A stretch of 64,000 nt of DNA from contig NC_037254.1 of the NCBI RefSeq assembly GCF_000002425.4, forward strand, positions 6,616,144-6,680,143. Reading direction: 5' to 3'. Of the stretch, positions 5,971-59,534 are shown one piece after another. Under the pieces are notes generated by a model, which saw only the letters and a list, made by a program, of their open reading frames with translations, ran no database searches and was not told the origin of the DNA. A program made the translations under genes and the position numbers. Source of the DNA: Physcomitrium patens. Lineage: Eukaryota; Streptophyta; Bryopsida; Funariales; Funariaceae. Every line of letters begins with the position of its first letter. Within the stretch, counting starts at the first letter, position 1.

Positions 5971-6264
5971 TCAAGGAAGATTAGGATCATACAGTTGCAA
6001 TATTGGAGTAGTAATGAGTCCTTCCTTCAACTTATCAAAGGTATTTTGTTGCTCTAATTTCCATTCAAATGATACACCTTTCTTTAATAGATTTGTCAAT
6101 GAAGCAGTAATGTGAGCAAATATCCAAATAAAATAGTGATAGTATCCAACAAGGCTTAAAAATGACTGAACTTCAAAAGCATCCTTGGGAGTTGGCCAAT
6201 CTTCCACTGCTTTTACCTTATCTTGTTTCATATGCACGGCTTTGAAGGACACCTCATATTCCAA
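5971..6264 (-). pseudogene. Reverse transcriptase/RNase H connection of the nested gypsy element
   Basis: About 97 codons stay open on the minus strand. They contain VEDWPTPKDAFEVQSFLSLV followed by a YYHYFI block, then FEWKLEQQNTFDKLK and a TPILQLYDP block. This is the standard order where gypsy reverse transcriptase passes into RNase H. An FIDD catalytic motif lies upstream on the minus strand near 6390-6410 in a different frame, so frameshifts separate the parts. Confidence 0.8.
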
Positions 6265-8640
6265 AAAGGTGACCTCCGACTTCCAAAATTTATATTTTAA
6301 TTGCTTGCAATAGAAGTGACTATCTTGTAGCCAACGTAGTACTTCTTACAGGTATTATTCATGCTCTTCAGGGATTTTATTATATATTACAATATCATCA
6401 ATGAAGACAACTACATGCTTGTCCAAAAGGTCTCAAAACAATCTATTTATCTGACCTATGAAAGATGCTAGAGCATTGGTGAGGCCAAAAGATAAAATTA
6501 GCTATTCAAGATGTTAATAGTACATACAAAATGTCATCTTTTCTTCATCCTTTCTTACAATAGGTATTTGCCAATAGCTACTTTGAAGTTCGAATTTATT
6601 AAAGATGGTCGCACCTCAAAGTTAGTTACGAAGATCATCTATGCATAGAAGTGGATATGCATTTTTAACAATTTATTTATTAAAGCCTTAATAGTCAATG
6701 CAAAGGCAAAGTCCACCATCTTTCTTGGGTGTAAAGAATATATGTGCTCTCTATGATAATGTATTTTTTAAAATGAGGCCTTTCTCAAAAAGTTCACCTA
6801 ATGTCTTTTGTAATTCTTCAAGTTCTTCTAGTGTTAGACAATAAATTGGTCGACTTACTAGTTTGGCTCCAAGCAATAATTCTATTTGAAAGGAGGCACC
6901 TCAATTAGGAGGTATGCCACTAGATAGGTCGATTGGAAAGACATCTTGATATTCTTATATGAGCTGCTGAATCTGTTCTATTCCTTTAGCTATCTTTTCC
7001 ACCATTGATGCAAGATTGGGAACTACCATATATATATCGATTGCTCATGTTGTATTTGCTTCTTGATAAAAGTCAATCCTACGAGTAGTTTTTTGATTGC
7101 AGATTATCTTTTGTTTTTACTTGATGTAAAGGTGCAAAGACTCACCTTGCAGCGTCCATCTTTAAAAGATATTATCTTTGCTATCCAATCAACTTGCTCA
7201 TTTTCTATCTCTAATCATGTCATATTTTAACTTTATCACCTTGAATCTCTTTCTTAAGCCATAGGCATCTATCAATCTCATGGTTTTTTCTTCATACGTC
7301 TTACTCAATACATTCTCTTGGTCATCTATAAGGTATATAATTCCTCCTTTCATTTCTTTGGTTTTAATTCCAACTTGGTTGGTAATTTTAGTTGATATGC
7401 AATTTTTTGTAAAGCCACAATCTATAAGTACTTAACATGGTTGCCCTTTTAGTAGTTCCATAAGAAATACTAGTCAATTCTTTTTATAGTTATTTGAGGC
7501 TATACCATTTATCTCTGAGAGATAATAGCTACCTTCAATATTGCCCCCAGTGTCTTTATTAGGAAGCTCAATTTTCCTACTCTAACTCATTATTGACTTA
7601 GTATGTTTTGAGACTATGAACTCACCTTGTCTTGCTAATACTTGCACTTTGACGATTTAGACAACTTCCAATCTAATAACTTGGCTCTTGATAATAGAAA
7701 CTTAATCCCTTTTGTATGAATATTTATCATCTTTGTGGTATCAATGATCCTTGTAATGCATCAATCTCCATTGCTATTGATTGTTGTGCCATAATGTTAG
7801 ATAGTGGCATAGGACTTTGTATTATAGGTTGGGCTCTACAATTTTTGAAATCTATAAAATAGATCTTCTCTGCAATCCAAACTACATCTTCAAATATTTG
7901 TTGATCCTTTATCTCTACTTCTTGCTAGATCCCAGGTTTCAAACCTTGTAAGAATTGATCCATCATCTTTGCCTTCAAAACATTACTAATTTGGAGATAT
8001 AGGAACTTGAATCAAGAGACATAATCTTGCACCACCTAGCTTGTGTAAGATTTGTCAATTGATTGCGTGTTATCTTCTCTGCATTGATGGACCAAAATTG
8101 ATTTCTAAACTCGGTTTCAAACTCTTCTTAGTTACAAAATCTACCTTGAGCTCCATAGCTTTAAACTTGATGTGGCTACCAAATAGCTACCACATCTTTC
8201 AAATAGCTAGCTTCATATATAATTCTTTTAGCATTATTTGCCTCAAATAATTGAAGGTATTATTGCATGTTGAAGAACCATTGACATACATCTTCTTGTC
8301 TTAAAGTCCCAAAGTATGTACTAGGCTTATTCAATTTCAACCTAGCAAATGTTGACTCTCTTATCTTTAAGGCTTTTATTTGGCCTTACAAAGTAGCTAT
8401 CTGGCTTTAAAAGTATTGTATTTGAACCTCCATCTAAAGCCTCCGTATCTCTCATATTGTAATTTCTCCACTAGATTCTATTATTGTAATACCTTTTCAC
8501 CTCGCAATTGACTTTTTAAGAGTAGATTGTGATAGTCTCAATATAAGATCCTTTATGACCACAACAATTGACCTTAGGCTAGATGGTAATTATTGACATG
8601 CTATCAAAAGTAAGTAGTCTAATACTCGCTCTAATACCAA

Positions 8641-11190: not shown

Positions 11191-12084
11191 AGAAATTATA
11201 TAATCTTTGATGTATAGATTAAGAATTTATGGAAAAAAAAATTAAAAGATTTTTGATCTTTGAAATCAATATATTAAAGCCAATAGTGAAATAGAAAAAT
11301 AGAGCTTGAAATTTCTTATACTTACTATATTATTAGAATCTTAAAATCTAAATATTCAGTTGATTGCATTAAAGAAAAAAGAAGAGATTATAGAAGAAGT
11401 AATACAATCTATTTTTCTTGAAAAAGAGAAGGAAAAGACTAATTCTTTATTTTTTGTTTTAATAGTACATGCAAGAAAAAAACAAGTCTTAAAGAAGCAC
11501 CATCTACAACAAAAACAGATAACTTTAGAAGTACTTATAAGGCTTATCGACAAAAAAGACATTGACAAGGTGATGCAGAATGTCCTAAAACAAATAACAA
11601 TGATGTAGTAAATGCTAGCATTGTTGTTGTTCTATCAATTCAAGAGATATCATTTAATTCAAAAATAATGATTGCATTATTATCTCAATTATGACATTAT
11701 GTATGCATGGATAATACAACAGATGTACACATCTAAGATAAGAGTGAGCTTCTCAATTTTGATTAAAATGCAACTATCTAATTTCAAGTCTATGATGGTA
11801 GCATTGGCAAATCACAAGGCTCAAGTGAGTTGCATCTCATACTTTTAGACCTTATAGAAAAATGCATTCCTATGGTTATGAAGGATGTCCATTGAATTCC
11901 TAGAGCACGTAATACTTTGTTATTAGCTGCAAATTTATACAAGAAAGATTGTAAATTTAATTTAAATGTCAATGAAGTCAATTGGATTCTATTTTCAAGT
12001 GACTTACTTACACCAAGCACGCTAGCAAGTAAAGCTTATTTTATACCTTGTAAAATTTAAGAAGTTGCTACAATTTATAATTCA

Positions 12085-12370
12085 TCTATTTTAAGTCATA
12101 CACTTATTGAATGGCATCAAGCATTAGTACATGCTTCAATACACACAATGAAAGAGGCAGAGCAGATAAATTGTATTGAAGGATTAAAGATCAAGAGGGA
12201 GAAGGATAAAATATCTATATGTGAATCATGCATTATTGGCAAGGCCCATAGGCAACCTTTCTCATACAAGCATAAACATATCAATAATATTTTAGATGTA
12301 ATAATGTTTGATCTTAATTATTCTAATACAGCTAACTTTTATAGCACCAAATGGTTAGTTATATAAATTA
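12085..12370 (+). pseudogene. Copia GAG-pre-integrase zinc-binding region
   Basis: The translation has WHQALVHASIHTM, then CIEGLKI, then CESCIIGKAHRQPF. This is the H-H-C-C zinc-binding block that precedes copia integrase. A pure run of about 33 adenines at about 12479-12511 interrupts the integrase core downstream. Confidence 0.75.
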
Positions 12371-23455: not shown

Positions 23456-23895
23456 AGCTTGAGGGAGGTTTTTTCAGAGGCGAGGAGGGGAGCGTTGTTG
23501 TAACGGATAGGTTGAGGATTGTCGAGGGTGGCGTGATCTTGGATTAGGAGAGTGAAATCGGGATAGGTTGCGGGAGGACCGAGGTGTAGGGATTTTTGTT
23601 TTTTGGGTAGTGTTTTTGTTTCTTCGGAACAGTTGATCGGTGTTTGGTGCCCTTGTGGCCTTCCAGCTGCAAGGACTCCGTACTTATTTATTTATTTACT
23701 TATTCTTGCTTCCCCTCCCCTTATGTTTTGTATTCATTTCATTTTCATTATCATTTATTTGAAATTTTAGAGGGGGGGGAGTTGGTGGTCTGTACACTTT
23801 TGTCATTTTTGTGTGGTATCGCGGAGGGGGACCTGGTGAGAGGCGGAGGGATTATGCGAGTGAGGGATAGTGAGTGAGATCGGTGGCAGAGAGAA

Positions 23896-26800
23896 ATGGT
23901 GTCGCAGGTGGTGAAGACGGATCCGCATTGGCCTCCTTTGGAAGAGAGTATGGGACAGGAGAGGTATTCATTGAATTCGGATGTCGTGCCGTCGTCTTCC
24001 GTTCCCGGTTTTCATAACTTGTCGGCGCCCCAGCCTATGGATGGCTTGCAGAGTACCGCGCCCCCGCCGTTTCTGACGAAGACATATGACATGGTGGATG
24101 ATCCTGCCACTGATCCCGTAGTCTCTTGGAGTACTGGTCACAACAGCTTCATAGTGTGGAACCCTCCTGATTTCGCTCAGGAGTTGTTGCCGAAGTATTT
24201 TAAGCACAACAACTTTTCCAGCTTCGTTCGGCAACTGAACACTTACGTAAGTTTCAAGCATTAATATCTGAGCCCAGCTATCAAAGTACTGGGAAGAATT
24301 AATGATACCCTGCTTGTTATTGTAAGGTCGGAGTGTTGCAAATCTCCTCTTCAATCTTGACGCGGCTGAATTCGTGGTATATAAGTAGTTTTATCATTTC
24401 TTACAAGCAAAGCATTTTACCTCCAAATCATTCAGCCCGAGGAGGCAATTTCGTAATTTAATCACGTGGACATCTCCACAATTGTGCGTGGAGTTGTTTG
24501 ACAAGCTAATTCGTGTAGAATTGTTTTCCAACCTTACACACATATCTACGAGTTTGATTTGACCTTTTTGTAGTTATGGTTCAAAAGAAATTGGCAAGTT
24601 CGTGACTTCTTGACGCAAATTTGGATGAATTTTGTTCAGGGATTCCGTAAGGTTGATCCGGATCGTTGGGAGTTTGCTAACGAGGGTTTCTTGCGTGGAA
24701 GACGAGATCTTTTGAGGACTATTCATCGGCGCAAACCAGCGACGCACTCTCAGCAATCAGCGCAACAGCAACAGCAGCACCAGCAAACCGACCAGGGTTC
24801 TGTGGGACCCTGTGTAGAAGTTGGGAAATTTGGGCTTGAAGGTGAAATTGAAAGGCTGAAGAGGGACAAAAACGTGTTGATGATGGAACTGGTGCGATTA
24901 CGGCAACAGCAGCAGAATACAGAGCGAGATTTGCAGGTACTTGAATTTTCCGCACAGTTTTCTTTTTGCATATGTTATTTGGCATGCGTCTGTTTTGGTG
25001 GATCTTTTCAAGCGGATGTGGAGATGAGTTTGGACAAGTTTCTGTTGCCTCACTGGATGTGCAGATGCTGCGTAGCCGTGAGAAAGTCCAGTTCAGCAAT
25101 AAAATGTGGCATCAATTCCCATTTCATCGGCGCAAGGATTGCTTAAAGTGATAGTTTCTGTCACTGTTTGGTCTAAATTGTTTAAGCATATCCTTGTAAG
25201 TTGGGGTTTATAAAGTTCATGTTAGTGAGAGAAAGCTGTGACAACGTCGACCCCGTCGACCGTATGGGAAAGGAATTTGGCAAACTTATAACTGGGATTT
25301 AGATCTTCCAGCGGATCGCTTAGTCTCGTTTTCCTTTTTGATAGTTGTTCCTAATCACAACCTCGAATTTCTTAATAGAGATGTAATCGCACTGCGAGAG
25401 TCATGTTCTCGGAGCTTATCTCTCAAAATTTTACGAGTAGGTCTGTATATGTGTTAACGAAACGGATGCTCTTTTACTAGGATCATCAACCGTAAAGGAT
25501 CTCCGGTGTGATGGTGATTCTAGTTTTGTGCTTAGTAAAATATTAATACTCGGTTCTCAACAAGCAGATTGGCAGACTTGTTCGTAAATGCTTGCTGAAG
25601 ACTGCAAGTCGTTTGTGCAGGCAATGGGTCAACGGCTGCTTACAACAGAGAATCGGCAGCAACATATGATGTCTTTTCTTGCCAAAGCTATGCAGAATCC
25701 AAGCTTTTTGGCTCAACTTATGCAACAATCAGAGAATAAGAGACTTGCTGCAACCGTTCGGAAGAAACGGCGTCTTCCTAAACAGGATTCTAGTGCAGAT
25801 GATTCAGTTAGCTCAGATTCCCCAGCTGATAATCAAATTGTGGCTTTCCATTCTAATGGAAATGCAGATGCTAATGGAGCTCGGGCTATGATTATGCAGT
25901 TTTTCAACTCAACAGATGCTGCATCCGCACCTAGTCTTGATAGTGGTCCCCTTGAAGCCTTGTTTAGGGATCTAGGCTCCGCCCCTTCTGGTCCTGACGC
26001 ACTGAATCGACAATCTGGCGTCACGCTCACTGAAATGAATATATCCGGCCTTGGTGATGCTTTACCTGGACCGGCTGTCATGGATGCTTCAACTGAAGTT
26101 CCTGACCTGCCAATGCCCCAACATCTGACAAGTCGAATTCCAAGACTAGAAGGTTTGTACTTGTTCCACCGTTTAGGAAGGTTGCATCTGCGGAAGAGCT
26201 TTATTTGATTATTGTCTTTTACGAGAATTGTCCATTTTGTCGTGTAATTGACACCCAACGGTTCCTTTTTGTACGAATTGGTGTTGAGATGATGATTTTA
26301 ACCGTCAATTCTTTTGCTATAATTGAGGCATCGAGTCTTCTGGATAATTAAAAATCCTTTGAAGTTTATTTAATGTCTGAGTATGTTTGGTTTAGGGGCT
26401 TATATAATGCCATACAGGAATCAGAATATACCAAACATCTAATAGGTCTATTAGTGAACTTTGTGAGACATAATGTGGAATGTCCGTATGGATTAGGACT
26501 TACTTGTTCATGGGAACTAGTTCTTATTTTCTAAAGCAATTTTTTCATCTTGGACCAGGTGCCCTAAGTATGAACAAAGGGAGTATTCACTCTGGTGCAG
26601 AAATCAAGCCCGAGGATATCACTGGAGAGTCCATGGAATTTGCCTCAGAAGGAGGCAGAACTTCATTAGAGGGAGATGAAGTGATATCGAACCTCGGCAG
26701 CCCAGCCGTATCAGCTGCTAACGATATATTTTGGGAGCAATTCTTGAGTGAGACTCCATCAGGAGTAGATCACGAACTAGATGGTGATTTAGATTTAGGT

Positions 26801-26956
26801 CCTCATGACAAAGAGGCTGATGGAGATGAGATTGTGGGGGATTCAGTTGAAATTTTAGCTGGTGACGAACATGGTGGGGAAGTGAAAAATTGGTGGAGTA
26901 AGAAGCCTAGTGTCGAGCAGTTGTCTGTTCAAATGGGACAGCTAGCACCTGGGTAG
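23896..26956 (+). CDS. HSFA: Class A heat shock transcription factor
   Basis: Likely a nuclear activator binding heat shock elements as a trimer. Four exons join in frame: 23896-24246, 24640-24936, 25621-26152 and 26559-26956, giving 525 residues. The DNA-binding domain spans about residues 56-148 ([11 protein letters not shown] to LRTIHRRK), and its intron falls after FVRQLNTY, the usual HSF position. The coiled HR-A region is about 180-216. HR-B follows at about 217-252 ([18 protein letters not shown]), with the long A/B spacing of class A. A basic nuclear localisation signal VRKKRRLPK lies at 262-270, an AHA activation motif DIFWEQFL at 449-456 and a Leu-rich export-like tail at 512-523. 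The start gives the first Met of the open frame. Two introns lie outside the DNA-binding domain, more than most seed-plant HSFs have. The A1-type subclass is not certain. Confidence 0.95.
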
Positions 26957-29035: not shown

Positions 29036-30234
29036 ATGGTGACCCCTCTCGTCAAGCGCGATGTCATCAAGAAGCGCGTCAAGAAGTTCAAGCGCATGCA
29101 GTCTGACCGCAAGATTTGCGTCAAGGTACAGTCTCTACACTCTCACTTTGGGTCCTCTGGGTCCTCGGGAATCTCCATGGTTTGTTCGTAGTGGTTGGCA
29201 ATTTACCCATTCGGGTTCCTCTTGTGTTTATTCTTCGTGGATTCCTGCAGTTCCTGTGAAGGGTTCATGAGAGCACCATGCTGTTTTAGGGTTTTTTTTT
29301 GTGTCTGCAGTGCGTGTGTTCTGCTGTTTCGATGCTCCGTGCTGTGTTGTTTTTGGGTGGCTGTTTGTTTAATATGCATGTGAAGAGACCCAGCTCCAGT
29401 TGTCCTTTCATCACGTGCTTTATTCCTCTCGCTGTTTGTGAATATGGTGACTTGGAGGTGGATTCAGTCTCCATGGATTGAGTTCTGATTTTGTCGGTCG
29501 ATGTGTGTTTGTTTTTCTTTTCAGACGAACTGGAGGAGGCCGAAGGGAATTGACTCTAGGGTGCGTCGTAAGTTCAAGGGAACTACTTTGATGCCCAACA
29601 TTGGTTACGGATCCAACAAGAAGACGAGACATGTGCTGCCCAGCGGTTTCGTTAAGTTTTTGGTTCACAATGTGAAGGACGTCGAGTTGTTGTTGATGCA
29701 CAACAGGTGAGTGGCTTGCCGAAACTCCCCGTTTTATCTTACCCGCTGTAGGAATTATGTGTTGATACACATTTTGGATATTGTTAAAAAGATGTAGTCA
29801 CTTAATGATTTGATGTGTATGTGTGTGTTAACACACTGAATTGTAAGCTGATTGGAAGGTAAACAGGAAGATGGTACATGTAGTCAGAGTCGATGAGGTA
29901 CCCTGGGAATCTCTGTGAACACCCGTCTATAGTCATTGCCCATAGAACTAAGTAGGATTCTTAGATTGCGGTGAGATTCAGTAAGTGTTTCAAATACCAG
30001 AGGTTATTGGTTACATTTCAGATTTTATGTCGTCTTTCAGTGGCGCACACATTAGATATGTATCGATGGTTAAATTTGTGAAAATGGTTTACATGTCAAT
30101 GCAGGAAGTACAGCGCTGAAATCGCACACAACGTCTCCACCTTGAAAAGGAAGGCGATTGTGGAGCGCGCAGCACAGTTGAACATTGCGTTGACCAACGG
30201 AAGTGCCCGTCTTCGCAGCCAGGAGGACGAATAG
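29036..30234 (+). CDS. RPL32: 60S ribosomal protein eL32
   Basis: A structural protein of the cytosolic large ribosomal subunit. Three exons join in frame: 29036-29125, 29525-29706 and 30105-30234, giving 133 residues, the normal family length. The amino-terminus is basic. Exon 2 opens [19 protein letters not shown] and continues with [10 protein letters not shown] and [10 protein letters not shown]. Exon 3 has [19 protein letters not shown] and ends LRSQEDE. All introns have GT-AG ends. The start ATG lies in a GCCATGG context. An upstream in-frame start at 28967 would add 23 residues foreign to the family. A telo-box sits upstream. Confidence 0.97.
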
Positions 30235-35332: not shown

Positions 35333-35704
35333 CTACGCAAGCATGGGAGGAAAGGGTTGAGCATGCACAGGTAGGAGAGGGTCGTATGAAAGTTCCCAAT
35401 TTTTGCGAAGCCGCCGTGTGGTTGTTCCTCTCTTCTCCCTGGGGTTTCCGAAAGAGCCCTTAAATCGCTTCCCACGCTTGGTCTTCTTATCTCCTCTCCC
35501 ACAGACGACTGCGTCTAAGCCATCCTCTGAGCTCGCCATAACCTGCGACCCTGATTCAGGTCCAACCAACCTTGGAGCAAGACCGCTTGTATCCATAACG
35601 GACTGTGAAAAAGAGGAATGTAAACGCCACCAAACTGGTACAAATTCCAGCTGTGGTGTACGAGTTAAGGACTTCCCAAGCTGAAGGAGGCGACCCCACG
35701 CCAT
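35333..35704 (-). CDS. Mitochondrial small-subunit ribosomal protein bTHX (S31)
   Basis: A small basic protein of the mitochondrial ribosome small subunit. The 123-residue frame carries the family core CGRGDKKTKRGKRFKGSFGN followed by PR at residues 68-89. Residues 1-36 are basic and hydrophobic with Trp and Ser (MAWGRLLQLGKSLTR), like a mitochondrial presequence. The ATG at 35704 is the first Met. The frame stays open upstream to 35761, but there it meets TTTGTGTGCAG, a likely acceptor of a leader intron ending at 35752. The tail after the core does not resemble the conserved tail of seed-plant bTHXm, and no splice donor was found to replace it. A chloroplast paralogue (PSRP4) is less likely from the core wording. 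Confidence 0.85.
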   Translation of the reverse strand: MAWGRLLQLGKSLTRTPQLEFVPVWWRLHSSFSQSVMDTSGLAPRLVGPESGSQVMASSEDGLDAVVCGRGDKKTKRGKRFKGSFGNPREKRGTTTRRLRKNWELSYDPLLPVHAQPFPPMLA

Positions 35705-35812
35705 AGCAGCGCGTCTTGCAAACAACAATTTCGCAACCCTAGAAGCTAAATCTGCACACAAAAACGATCAGCTCATGAAGTAAAAAAACAAAAAAAAACA
35801 AAAAAACAAAAA

Positions 35813-40920: not shown

Positions 40921-42199
40921 ATCCTCAAACCCCGAAGGTATCAGCTCTGAGTCTGAGCTCGACTGTTTTGTCGTCTTCATACACTGCTAACAAGACCTCC
41001 AACGGCATTCTAAGTCGGCAGCGGATCGAGGGGACTTGCGGCGGCGAGATCACGAAACATGGCTTCCAAATAGCAACGCAGAATTGTGTGCTACCCCACC
41101 CCCAACGTGAAAGAGGAGGAGGAGATGGAGAAGGTGACTGGTGGGGCATGCGGCGAAAATCTGCAGGGATTTCCATGGCTCGGCAACCAACGCTAATCCA
41201 CAGCTGCTATTGCAGTGCCACCACCCAAATCCCCACCGCCCCCGCACGAGTGGGAATCCTGCAACTGGGTCCGTTTCCTTTTTTAAAAAATTTACTGGGT
41301 CCGACCTCTTCGCAGAGCCGTTGCGTCACGCGCGGTTTTTTATGGTAGAGAGAAACGACGCTAGGTCGTTCCTCTTCCTCGCCCCCTCTCCCGGTGCATC
41401 ATATTTGTCGATTGTTTCCGTTGCACTCCTAGCTTACAATTCTGTCATCCTGTAGTCGATGTCCCTCGAGCTGCCATCCAGAAAGCTCTTCAGTCTTATA
41501 CTCGACCTGTTCGGATTGCTGTCGACGCATCTCGTTACGATTGAGCCGTGCCTGCGGTGTCCCGGGCACTTGTGTCATCTTTTTTCAGGTCTCTCTAGAG
41601 AACCTTCCTCGTGAACGCGTAATGTCTCAAGGTTGATAGTGTGGGGGTGTCAGCTTTTTCGTCCCTGGGAGCATCGTTTGGAGCGTCAGCTGTGACTTCC
41701 TGTCGAGATCCTTGGTAACCACTTTTAATTGTTTTCGAAGTTTTGGTTGGTCAGCGGATTTGCTCCCTCGAGGCGTCTGGTAGTGGTCCTTATTGGGAGC
41801 CAGGAATTTTTACGGATGTTTCTAGATGTGTGAAAGTCAAGAACAGGATCAAAAGAATTGAAACGGACATTCCCAATGTCAAGTTACAGCACAATGCTTC
41901 ATCTTTCTCTCGTGCATCGATTCCCGACTACGTCGATTCCATGCATACTCGATGTGTGTAACGCTAAGTGGGCTTGACGACGTAGTTGGTTCATGTATTG
42001 TAGAAAAATTGCTCTGCTGATCTCGCTTGTCACACATTGGATGCAGTTCTGCAGGGCACTCCTCTTTGAGTAAACTAGATCTAGGATCTGTAGCATATGA
42101 AGAGTTGCGATCGAACGAATTGAGGGGCGCAAGTGTTAGGAAGGTCTAGGAGCGCAGTGGGCAGATACAGAAGTTGTGGGGGAAGATAGTGGATACGAG
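40921..42199. other. Gene-like base composition upstream of the MYND gene, no gene assigned
   Basis: The sequence has balanced base composition, so it may be promoter, leader or an unrecognised gene. Frames of 65-126 codons overlap on both strands between 40925 and 41455 and at 41743-41961. None shows a domain, and some lack an ATG. It is the likely promoter and leader of the gene at 42200. Confidence 0.4.
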
Positions 42200-43218
42200 A
42201 TGTGGGAGATTTTAAGTTTCTCCATACCCGCTGCACTCCTAATACCTATGCTAGGAGCTATGTTCGCAGCGTGGTTCTTTTTGCAACAGAATGCGAAGTC
42301 TAGCGATATTCGCAGGGCTGAACTCCAGCGACTCCAGCGTAAGGCAATCGAGGAGCTCGAAAGGGCTGAAAGAGAGTTGGAAAACGACCACGCGCTTAAC
42401 ACATGGGATGGATCACGTGGCAGAGGAGGAAATTTCCGTACTAGAGGAGTACCAGGATATGGATATGCCGACAGGACTGAAAGAGAGTCGGAAAACGATA
42501 ATGGGCGTAACAAGCAGGATGAATCTCGTGGCGAAGGAGTGAATCGCAGTGCCACAGGAGCACCAGGGCATGAGTACGGAAAGGACCGCGTTGGTTTTGG
42601 TGATGTTGGAGGATGGAGAGATCTTGAGGTCGATACTCCCAAAACTAAGCGAGCTGAAGTCATGGAGTATCGCAGGAGTATCGTAGGAAACAACGATGCA
42701 CCTGAAACGGAGTTCAACCGTAGAAGTAAAGCCGAAAGTGAAGATTACATTGACAAGAAACACGATGAGGTGAGAAGAGTAAAGGATAAGCAGGAATGGG
42801 AGAAGAGAAGGCCGGATCTTGAAACTCAGGCAAGGAGAGAGGCGGAGGAAGAACGGAAGAGACAATCAGCGGCATCTGAAAATGAGAAACGAAGGAGGTG
42901 GGTAAATGAAGATACCCAGGAGTCTGTGAGACAAACGCAATCTTCGTCGACACCGAGATGTGCCGTCTGTCAGAAGCCTACAAGAAGACGATGCGCACGG
43001 TGCAAAGTTAGCAGTTACTGGTACTTTCCACCCCTGTCCACTTTAGCATTTTACATCCCTGGTTGAATGTAATTGAGCCTTTCGATGTAACATCAATTGA
43101 TGTATTCAGCTCTCGGGAATGCCAAGTGAAGCACTGGATCGATGGGCACAAGTATGAGTGTCATGTGGCTGACACTAGCATCAGCCCAAGAAGCTTCGGC
43201 GGCGACGACACTTTCTGA
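42200..43218 (+). CDS. Membrane-anchored MYND zinc finger protein, UBP15-19 amino-terminus without the peptidase
   Basis: Two exons, 42200-43020 and 43110-43218, give 309 residues. Residues 3-28 form a hydrophobic segment. A basic helix rich in Arg, Glu and Lys follows, then two copies of a 37-residue repeat, then a long charged region. A complete MYND zinc finger is built across the intron: C254, C257, C265, C268, C274, C278, H287 and C291. The Cys274 codon is split by splicing (TG|C), which supports the junction. An amino-terminal membrane segment plus MYND is the layout of plant ubiquitin proteases UBP15-19, but the frame stops 27 codons after the finger. No USP catalytic Cys or His box was found in the next kilobase. 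It may be a truncated paralogue, a pseudogene, or a real short protein. Confidence 0.75.
42366..42587 (+). repeat. 111-bp in-frame tandem duplication within the MYND gene
   Basis: The segment from 42366 (GCTGAAAGAGAGTTGGAAAA) is repeated from 42477 (ACTGAAAGAGAGTCGGAAAA). The protein shows two 37-residue copies, starting AERELENDHAL and TERESENDNGR and ending GYGYADR and GHEYGKDR. The period is a multiple of three, so the frame is kept. Confidence 0.8.
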
Positions 43219-45690: not shown

Positions 45691-45820
45691 GGCCAGGAGG
45701 AGGACAAAGCCTAGGGTTGAGGAGCATGAGGCTCTTTTGACGTTGCCTTGCTTGCATTCCAATCCCTTCTCGGTGTGAGTGAGCGAGCTGCTGCTGTTGC
45801 CCCACCATCGTCGTCGCAGC

Positions 45821-46153
45821 ATGGCCCCCTCCGTGGTTAGCAACGGCATCGCCGTCGGTCTGCACCGGGGTCACCAAGTTACCAAGCGAGACATCGCCAA
45901 GCGCCCCTCCGCCAGCAAAGGCAAGCTCGGCAAGCGCACCTCCATGGTCCGCAACCTCATCCGCGAGGTCGCTGGGTTCGCTCCGTACGAGAAGCGGATC
46001 ACGGAGCTGCTTAAGGTCGGCAAGGACAAGCGTGCTCTTAAGGTCGCCAAGAGGAAACTCGGCACCCATTTGCGTGCCAAGCGCAAGAGAGAGGAGATGA
46101 CGACCGTTTTGCGCAAGATGCGTGCTGGTGGTCACGCCGAGAAGAAGAAGTAA
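45821..46153 (+). CDS. RPL36: 60S ribosomal protein eL36
   Basis: A structural protein of the cytosolic large ribosomal subunit. One uninterrupted exon encodes 110 residues, the normal length. It contains [20 protein letters not shown], then [20 protein letters not shown], then RAKRKREEM and a Lys-rich carboxy-terminus (GGHAEKKK). The start is the first Met that gives the family amino-terminus. An in-frame start at 45779 would add 14 foreign residues. The absence of introns is unusual, since seed-plant RPL36 genes usually have them, but there is no poly-A tail or target duplication to prove retroposition. Confidence 0.97.
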
Positions 46154-57516: not shown

Positions 57517-59534
57517 ATGGACGCCGCAAGTTTAAGGTTAGACGTGCACAGAAACATGAGTCCTCTAGGAATAAGCCAATGGACATCGCCGGCGAATGCA
57601 GTAGAAAAGGTAGAAGAGATGTTGAGCAAAGCTATAAACTACCAGAAAGATCTTTGGGACATACTTGTAGTCCAATCGACCGAGAGTGATCCTACCAGGG
57701 AGATGAGGCAAGGAGATTTGATCCCTCCTCAACTCTTAAAATCCTTGAAGTCGAAGCTAGAGAACTCTATGGATTCGTGTAATTCAGCTCTCAATCGGCT
57801 AAAAGACATCATGGTCCAAACTACTTCTCTCCCATCACTTGCATCACCAGAGAATCTTGAATTGCAGAAGGAGTGGAATACGTACGTCGGAAGCTTCTTT
57901 CTAAACGAGCTCTCGCAGCTGTCATCTGGACCTCAAACCTGTAAGAGTGATCATTTTGCCATTAATTCTCCGGCTGCTTTAGCTGCCGCTGTTGCTAAAA
58001 AAACCGTTACCACCTTCTCAGACTTTTTCTGTGTCATGATCTTTGCCGAGTAAGTTCTACATTATCCCAAATCGATATTCTCTGCAGGTGACGATGAGGA
58101 GCTGCATGAACAGTCCATGAGCTTGTTAGTTTCTGAGGTAGAAACTCAACAAAACCAAGGAGTTTCGAGCTTACCAAGCTTAGAGTTAGTTTCAGACTGG
58201 AACATGCTGTCAGAAGCTCCGGTATCGGATCTGCCACCATCTCCTGGAGTTGCACTGATGGATCAAGGTCGGCAGAGCCCATCAACTTGCCATTTGCATA
58301 TACCAGAGGCCTCATGTAATGACAGCATTGCTAGTACAGATGTGCAAGACCTTGCAGACAACCCAAACGACCGAAGATTGATGACAAAGCTCAATAGTCG
58401 CGGACTTCGGCCGAGATGTGGGCCAAAACGAGACAGGTGCCCACAGTTCCTCGTCTACATCCCGCATTACTTGTAATTGGGACTTAGCCATGAACTTTGG
58501 CCTTTCAATGCTACTGTTGTGAGGTTCACCGTAGGTTAAGCTAGCTTCACAACTTCGCAGTTGTGAACTAATTGTGGTGCGTGGCTTCTCGAGCAAGGTA
58601 TTTCAGAGAGCAGACAGAAGAGAGGGGCGCCACCATGTCCGTTGTCTTCCAAGAGCTGAAGCCTGGAGATGACATGAAAAAGGGGATACCTGACGACGGC
58701 CATCGATGCTGGAAGAAATACGGCAACAAAGCAATCCAGAATTCAACCTTCTGCAGGTACGAGGAAGCATGCACAACATTGGATTTTCTAGGGCTGACAG
58801 TTTGATCTCCCCTTCGAGAAAGATGAAATTTCTCACTCTCAGTGCATGTGGCAATCAGAGGGTACTATAAGTGTAGTATGAAGGAATGCCGAGCAAAGAA
58901 GATGGTGCAACCCACAGACACAAACCCCAGCATCTTCGAGGTCACCTACCTCGGGAAACACACATGTTCCAGCACCTCTCGAAGAAGAATTCGATCTAGA
59001 CCAACTCCTGCCCATGCTCCAAAACCACAAGCAAACATCACCGAAACAAGGGTTGCAAGCCAATGCACGTCGACCCAAAACCCTAAATCCCAACACCCTC
59101 CCCACAAAACAAAACCTTCTGGAAACGACGAACAGAACACCACAACTGTCCAGAGAAAGAATACCCAACTGCCAAAACCCCGACAAACGACCTCAACAAT
59201 GAGATCAACAATCGGAGATCTCCGGGAGGGTGCAAATTCACAAAGAGAAGACAACAACTGGCCATCTGCAGGGCAACAAGAAGCAATTGAAAACGAAGGT
59301 AACATGGGAATGGATTCCGAGGGGACGAATTGCTCTCGTGAGGATGATGAAGATGATGAGCAAGAAGCCAGATTCCATTATCAAAGCTTGCGGCACCACC
59401 ATCACCACCCTCATCATCATCATCATCCTCAGTCCGGGTTCTCATTCCATACCGACACATTGCTGTGGTCGGAGATTCTGAACAGCAACCATCGGGAGGT
59501 TTGGAGCTCTGGAAACCTGCAGGTGGAGATTTAG
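57517..59534 (+). CDS. WRKY: WRKY transcription factor, group III-like with variant WKKYGNK and hybrid zinc finger
   Basis: Likely nuclear DNA-binding factor. Four exons join in frame: 57517-57940, 58088-58436, 58607-58756 and 58859-59534, giving 532 residues. The single WRKY domain reads DDGHRCWKKYGNK at 287-299, where the usual heptapeptide is WRKYGQK. The zinc ligands are C313, C318, H342 and C344. The HXC end is typical of group III, but Cys-Cys spacing is X4, typical of groups I and II, not X7. The intron splits the Arg codon before GYYKC (AG|A), the conserved WRKY intron site. A Gln/Asn/Thr-rich tail has an acidic patch and His runs at 487-497. The amino-terminal helices resemble those of group III. 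Binding to the normal W-box may be altered. Confidence 0.9.

Follow-up and report, generated by a model that had tools for sequence, protein, structure and literature searches.

A Physcomitrium patens WRKY gene with a WKKYGNK heptapeptide and a C-X4-C, H-X-C zinc finger, a probable member of a moss-type group III-like lineage

The closest described relatives of the gene reported here are probably WRKY proteins of the moss Physcomitrium patens itself. The Figure 4 legend of Rinerson et al. 2015 (PMC4350883) names WKKYGNK as the conserved heptapeptide shared by several group III proteins of P. patens, and section 9 of the same article describes the moss genes as group III-like, with features missing in later plants. 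The article is inconsistent on one point, as the legend has WKKYGNK as the moss motif and WKNNGNT as the fungal one, and section 9 has them the other way round; a plant gene with WKKYGNK, such as the one described below, is in line with the version of the legend. Section 7 of PMC5112548 lists WKKY in PpWRKY46-1, 46-2, 55-1 and 52-2, plus members from other plants, and a passage of PMC5453597 gives WKKYGNK as present in some members. The sunflower WKKY group, in the available text of PMC7714227, consists of WKKYGQK, WKKYGEK and WKKYGKK, without WKKYGNK. Variants of the heptapeptide are in any case accepted within the WRKY family in the relevant parts of PMC544883, PMC6956055 and PMC5112548. WKKYGNK is already known and is not a new heptapeptide, and since it is in print for P. 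patens, the discovery made here is modest.

The picture of WRKY groups in mosses has itself changed. A 2005 survey (PMC544883), as far as its available text goes, found group 3 only among ESTs of flowering plants and in none of the six P. patens EST WRKY genes, a picture of a moss without group 3 that was later altered by the moss genome (PMC4350883). The finger formula combining X4 with H-X-C is also printed, in the passages concerned, for the group III members of wild strawberry and of Arabis, and for C2HC fingers generally. It appears to be used loosely outside the single-protein case of peanut AhWRKY71, and we therefore give those mentions little weight.

The window, i.e. the whole stretch of 64,000 nucleotides of P. 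patens DNA that was analysed, has a G+C content of 32.7% and carries a WRKY gene at 57517-59534 on the forward strand. This low G+C suits a moss such as P. patens, whose genome has about 33-34%. In a gene model derived from the sequence, four exons are spliced in frame (Table 1) into a CDS of 1599 nt that encodes 532 amino acids plus a stop. An in-frame TGA starts 15 nt 5' of the ATG, and the donor of exon 1 reads CCT/GTAAGAGT. Intron 2 is required, because the frame of exon 2 ends in a stop finishing at 58476 and that of exon 3 is open from 58572. None of 20,000 mononucleotide shuffles of the exons of the gene retained the open frame. Intron 3 interrupts the Arg codon of FCR; it corresponds to the PR intron, the name given for group III to the domain intron that splits an Arg codon (PMC4350883, in the part available). 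This Arg is preceded by Cys, whereas Pro occupies the position in 10 of the 11 domains used for comparison.

Table 1. Parts of the WRKY gene and motifs of its encoded domain, in window coordinates.
Feature	Position	Strand	Description
Exon 1	57517..57940	+	N-terminal region with the start codon; 141 codons + 1 nt; open frame, in-frame stop 5'
Intron 1	57941..58087	+	147 nt, GT-AG
Exon 2	58088..58436	+	part of the in-frame four-exon join
Intron 2	58437..58606	+	170 nt, GT-AG; donor GTGCCC weak-looking
Exon 3	58607..58756	+	first half of the WRKY domain
Heptapeptide WKKYGNK	58710..58730	+	wholly in exon 3
Intron 3	58757..58858	+	102 nt, GT-AG; splits the Arg codon (AG/A) of FCR; PR-type
Exon 4	58859..59534	+	second half of the WRKY domain, with the zinc finger; C-terminus polar and rich in His; ends in TAG
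Zinc finger C-X4-C-X23-H-X-C	58872..58967	+	wholly in exon 4

The encoded protein contains one Pfam WRKY stretch (PF03106; 68.5 bits, E 5.8e-19, covering positions 2-58 of the 59 of the profile), which lies above the Pfam cut-off of 21 and so places the protein in the WRKY family, with the single domain that is typical of group III. No further WRKY heptapeptide turned up when all six frames of the window were scanned with a simple pattern. The domain carries WKKYGNK in place of the canonical WRKYGQK, i.e. two changes (R to K and Q to N), and one additional residue lies between Asp-Asp-Gly and Trp (DDGHRC-W). Its zinc finger ends in H-T-C, which is the C2HC type (H-X-C) of group III, whereas the spacing of the first ligand pair is C-X4-C rather than the C-X7-C of flowering plant group III; because of this spacing we file the gene as moss-type group III-like and not as classical group III. 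Groups I and II have a C2H2 finger ending in H-X-H, and membership of the gene in these groups was rejected on the H-T-C ending, a grouping with IId or group I domains being disfavoured as well (see below). A first-pass annotation of this DNA had reported the doubly changed heptapeptide, the hybrid finger and a real WRKY gene of four exons joined in frame with an intron at the Arg codon, and all of these are confirmed here; the novelty of the heptapeptide was not borne out, given its publication for P. patens group III in the Figure 4 legend of PMC4350883.

Outside the domain, the basic stretch RRRIRSR directly follows the finger and is a candidate nuclear signal. The N-terminal region was compared with a profile of three Arabidopsis group III N-termini (two-helix start), made from approximate sequences; the comparison reached 8.4 bits in an unexpected register, a score equalled by at least two of 2000 shuffles among the 1940 of 2001 rows listed.

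OsWRKY45 (PDB 6ir8) ranks first among 13 PDB matches (2.1e-13, 47% identity over 57 columns). Over aligned columns, the window domain is 46% identical to AtWRKY17 and AtWRKY11, 43% to RRS1 and 33-41% to the remaining seven domains. We take OsWRKY45 and RRS1 to belong to group III, and AtWRKY11 and AtWRKY17 to IId. Trees were built from 12 domains, 11 of them from solved structures, over 53-60 columns; groups IIb, IIc and IIe are absent from this set, and the window domain is its only representative from outside the flowering plants. A second tree was built without ten columns: those of the loop and of the two positions altered in the heptapeptide, that of the extra residue, that of the last ligand, and further gappy columns. 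The window domain joins OsWRKY45 and RRS1 with a support of 92/92 in the 12-domain tree with all columns and of 94/95 after removal of the trait columns (branch not starred in either), and both best trees place it inside group III, beside OsWRKY45 (94/88 and 90/84). Constraining the window domain to group with IId gave AU p-values of 0.011 with all columns and 0.013 without the trait columns; the corresponding values were 0.013 and 0.018 for a grouping with the C-terminal domains of group I, and 0.006 in both trees for a grouping with all of group I. Placement outside the two group III rows gave p = 0.049 with all columns and p = 0.12 without the trait columns. Among the compared domains, the nearest kin of the window domain thus appear to be those of group III. 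Pattern and tblastn scans of viral and genome contig collections, which detect close relatives only, found 2 and 55 stretches, respectively, that fit the pattern, none of them with tblastn support in the one scan made of each collection.

Taken together, the gene is very probably an intact nuclear gene for a single-domain WRKY factor of a moss-type group III-like lineage, being one of PpWRKY35-38 or a member of their lineage, as judged from its sequence. Most likely it is no novel type of protein but a regular member of an old branch that is already known. An unlikely alternative is a lineage lying between the groups, which branched off before group III left group I/II, kept C-X4-C and already had H-X-C. 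This would account for a first-pair spacing as in group I and for an identity to the IId domains (46%) close to that to OsWRKY45 (47%), and a position next to, but not within, the pair of group III rows is tolerated once the trait columns are removed (p = 0.12), less so when they are included (p = 0.049). However, the domain falls inside group III beside OsWRKY45 in both best trees, and proteins with the same signature are filed as group III or III-like in the relevant parts of Rinerson et al. (PMC4350883). The earlier suggestion of an early-diverged lineage between groups therefore survives in its first half, as the gene fits an early-diverged, moss-type lineage; it finds no support in its second, as the domain groups with III rather than between groups (92/92 and 94/95).

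It is far less probable that the unusual domain reflects a pseudogene, or a group III copy that degenerated recently, with drifted motifs. Such drift might be suggested by the single domain having an extra residue and three altered motif positions (R to K, Q to N and P to C), but there are 532 open codons and three GT-AG introns, the zinc ligands are retained and the domain scores far above the Pfam cut-off, so that a pseudogene was rejected; WKKYGNK is, moreover, conserved in several P. patens proteins according to the PMC4350883 legend. The first-pass annotation had held that a recent degenerate copy would count against its reading, and with the frame intact this objection finds no support. 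Least credible of all is a splicing or assembly artefact that conceals a true domain with WRKYGQK and X7. WKKYGNK and C-X4-C are each encoded by contiguous codons within one exon. In addition, we enumerated the GT-AG choices for intron 3 that keep the frame and contain no stop (donors at 58735-58899, exon starts up to 59000, introns of at least about 60 nt), and none of the 12 choices with GT-AG sites yields C-X7-C, while all 12 leave WKKYGNK unaltered. Splicing is therefore not the explanation, and restoration of WRKYGQK with X7 was ruled out among these 12 choices, in agreement with the earlier claim that there is no slip at the domain intron; the alternative splice site that had been named as a possible refutation fails when checked on the sequence.

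In solved WRKY domains, zinc holds a four-stranded sheet and the heptapeptide strand lies in the major groove of W-box-like (TTGAC) DNA. By comparison with these complexes, the C2HC zinc site of the moss-type protein would hold a four-stranded sheet, and its KKYGNK strand would enter the major groove at W-box-like DNA. As Lys in place of Arg preserves the charge and Asn in place of Gln preserves the amide, the contacts to DNA may shift rather than vanish. Simulations of pigeonpea WRKYs, in the available part of PMC6956055, gave a lower predicted affinity when the heptapeptide Gln was changed to Lys or Glu; replacement of Gln by Asn, as seen here, is a milder kind of change. Weaker or shifted binding to the W-box, or an altered site preference, is thus possible.

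By analogy with group III, the factor is likely to regulate transcription under stress or in defence. In the available text of PMC8401727, P. patens exposed to Colletotrichum showed no change in any WRKY gene at 8 and 24 h, which we count against our preferred explanation, and several P. patens WRKY genes were raised under Botrytis. We also consider a bolder idea, which we hold to be doubtful: that the moss-type lineage keeps an ancestral C-X4-C C2HC finger predating the X7 loop of vascular group III, and that KKYGNK reads a non-W-box site and so serves a moss WRKY regulon absent from flowering plants. If the DNA preference does differ, this would bear on the timing of the defence role of group III.

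Several other features were observed in the window. A heat shock factor gene lies at 23878-26953 (+), with the start of an HSF DNA-binding domain (PF00447, E 1e-20) and later exons recognised downstream by eye. At 29043-30231 (+) there is a gene for ribosomal protein eL32, with several exons joined by eye, whose six best PDB matches are 133-residue eL32 chains, which we take to be from plant ribosomes. A single-exon ORF at 45779-46150 (+) presumably encodes ribosomal protein eL36, judging by eye, and a domain like that of ribosomal protein S31e/THX is found at 35336-35767 (-; PF17067, 1.7e-08). The region 42140-43215 (+) encodes a charged protein and, after it, a Cys-rich finger that is MYND-like and split, which together resemble by eye the start of a UBP-type protease; it includes a 111-bp tandem duplication at 42358-42567, and 42140-43063 has no Pfam match. 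Retroelement remnants are found at 5974-6345 (-; RT/RNase H-like, under the curated cut-off) and 12061-12363 (+; gag_pre-integrs, at the cut-off). Searches of the window with Rfam, at gathering scores, and with a tRNA scan gave no matches.

The locus offers a clean genomic example of an apparent moss-type group III-like domain, and its position is best seen beside the named WRKY systems. With PpWRKY35-38, as described in the relevant parts of PMC4350883, it has in common the WKKYGNK signature in its WRKY domain, the filing as group III or III-like and the PR intron named for group III. Peanut AhWRKY71, in the passage of PMC7144997 that describes it, is a group III protein with the finger written C-X4-C-X23-H-X1-C, as in the window gene; unlike the latter it is an angiosperm protein with an LRR domain, and the two are compared by the published formula only. 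AtWRKY11 and AtWRKY17 (IId) share R-G-Y-Y-K-C-S and I-P at the domain start with the window domain, but differ in having C-X5-C with H-X-H, and a joint clade is disfavoured (p about 0.01). OsWRKY45 resembles the window domain in its C2HC finger ending in H-T-C and in K-x-I-Q-N-S at the end of the heptapeptide and beyond; it differs in having WRKYGQK for WKKYGNK, X7 for X4 and HPK for FCR, and in lacking the extra residue before Trp. The most instructive case is RRS1/AtWRKY52 (PDB 5w3x), whose WRKY domain we assume to be of group III and whose spacing and last ligand likewise depart from the textbook pair: it combines C-X7-C with H-N-H, the mirror image of the hybrid in the window. Finger spacing and last zinc ligand can thus separate among group III relatives, so that group assignment by the finger formula alone can mislead.
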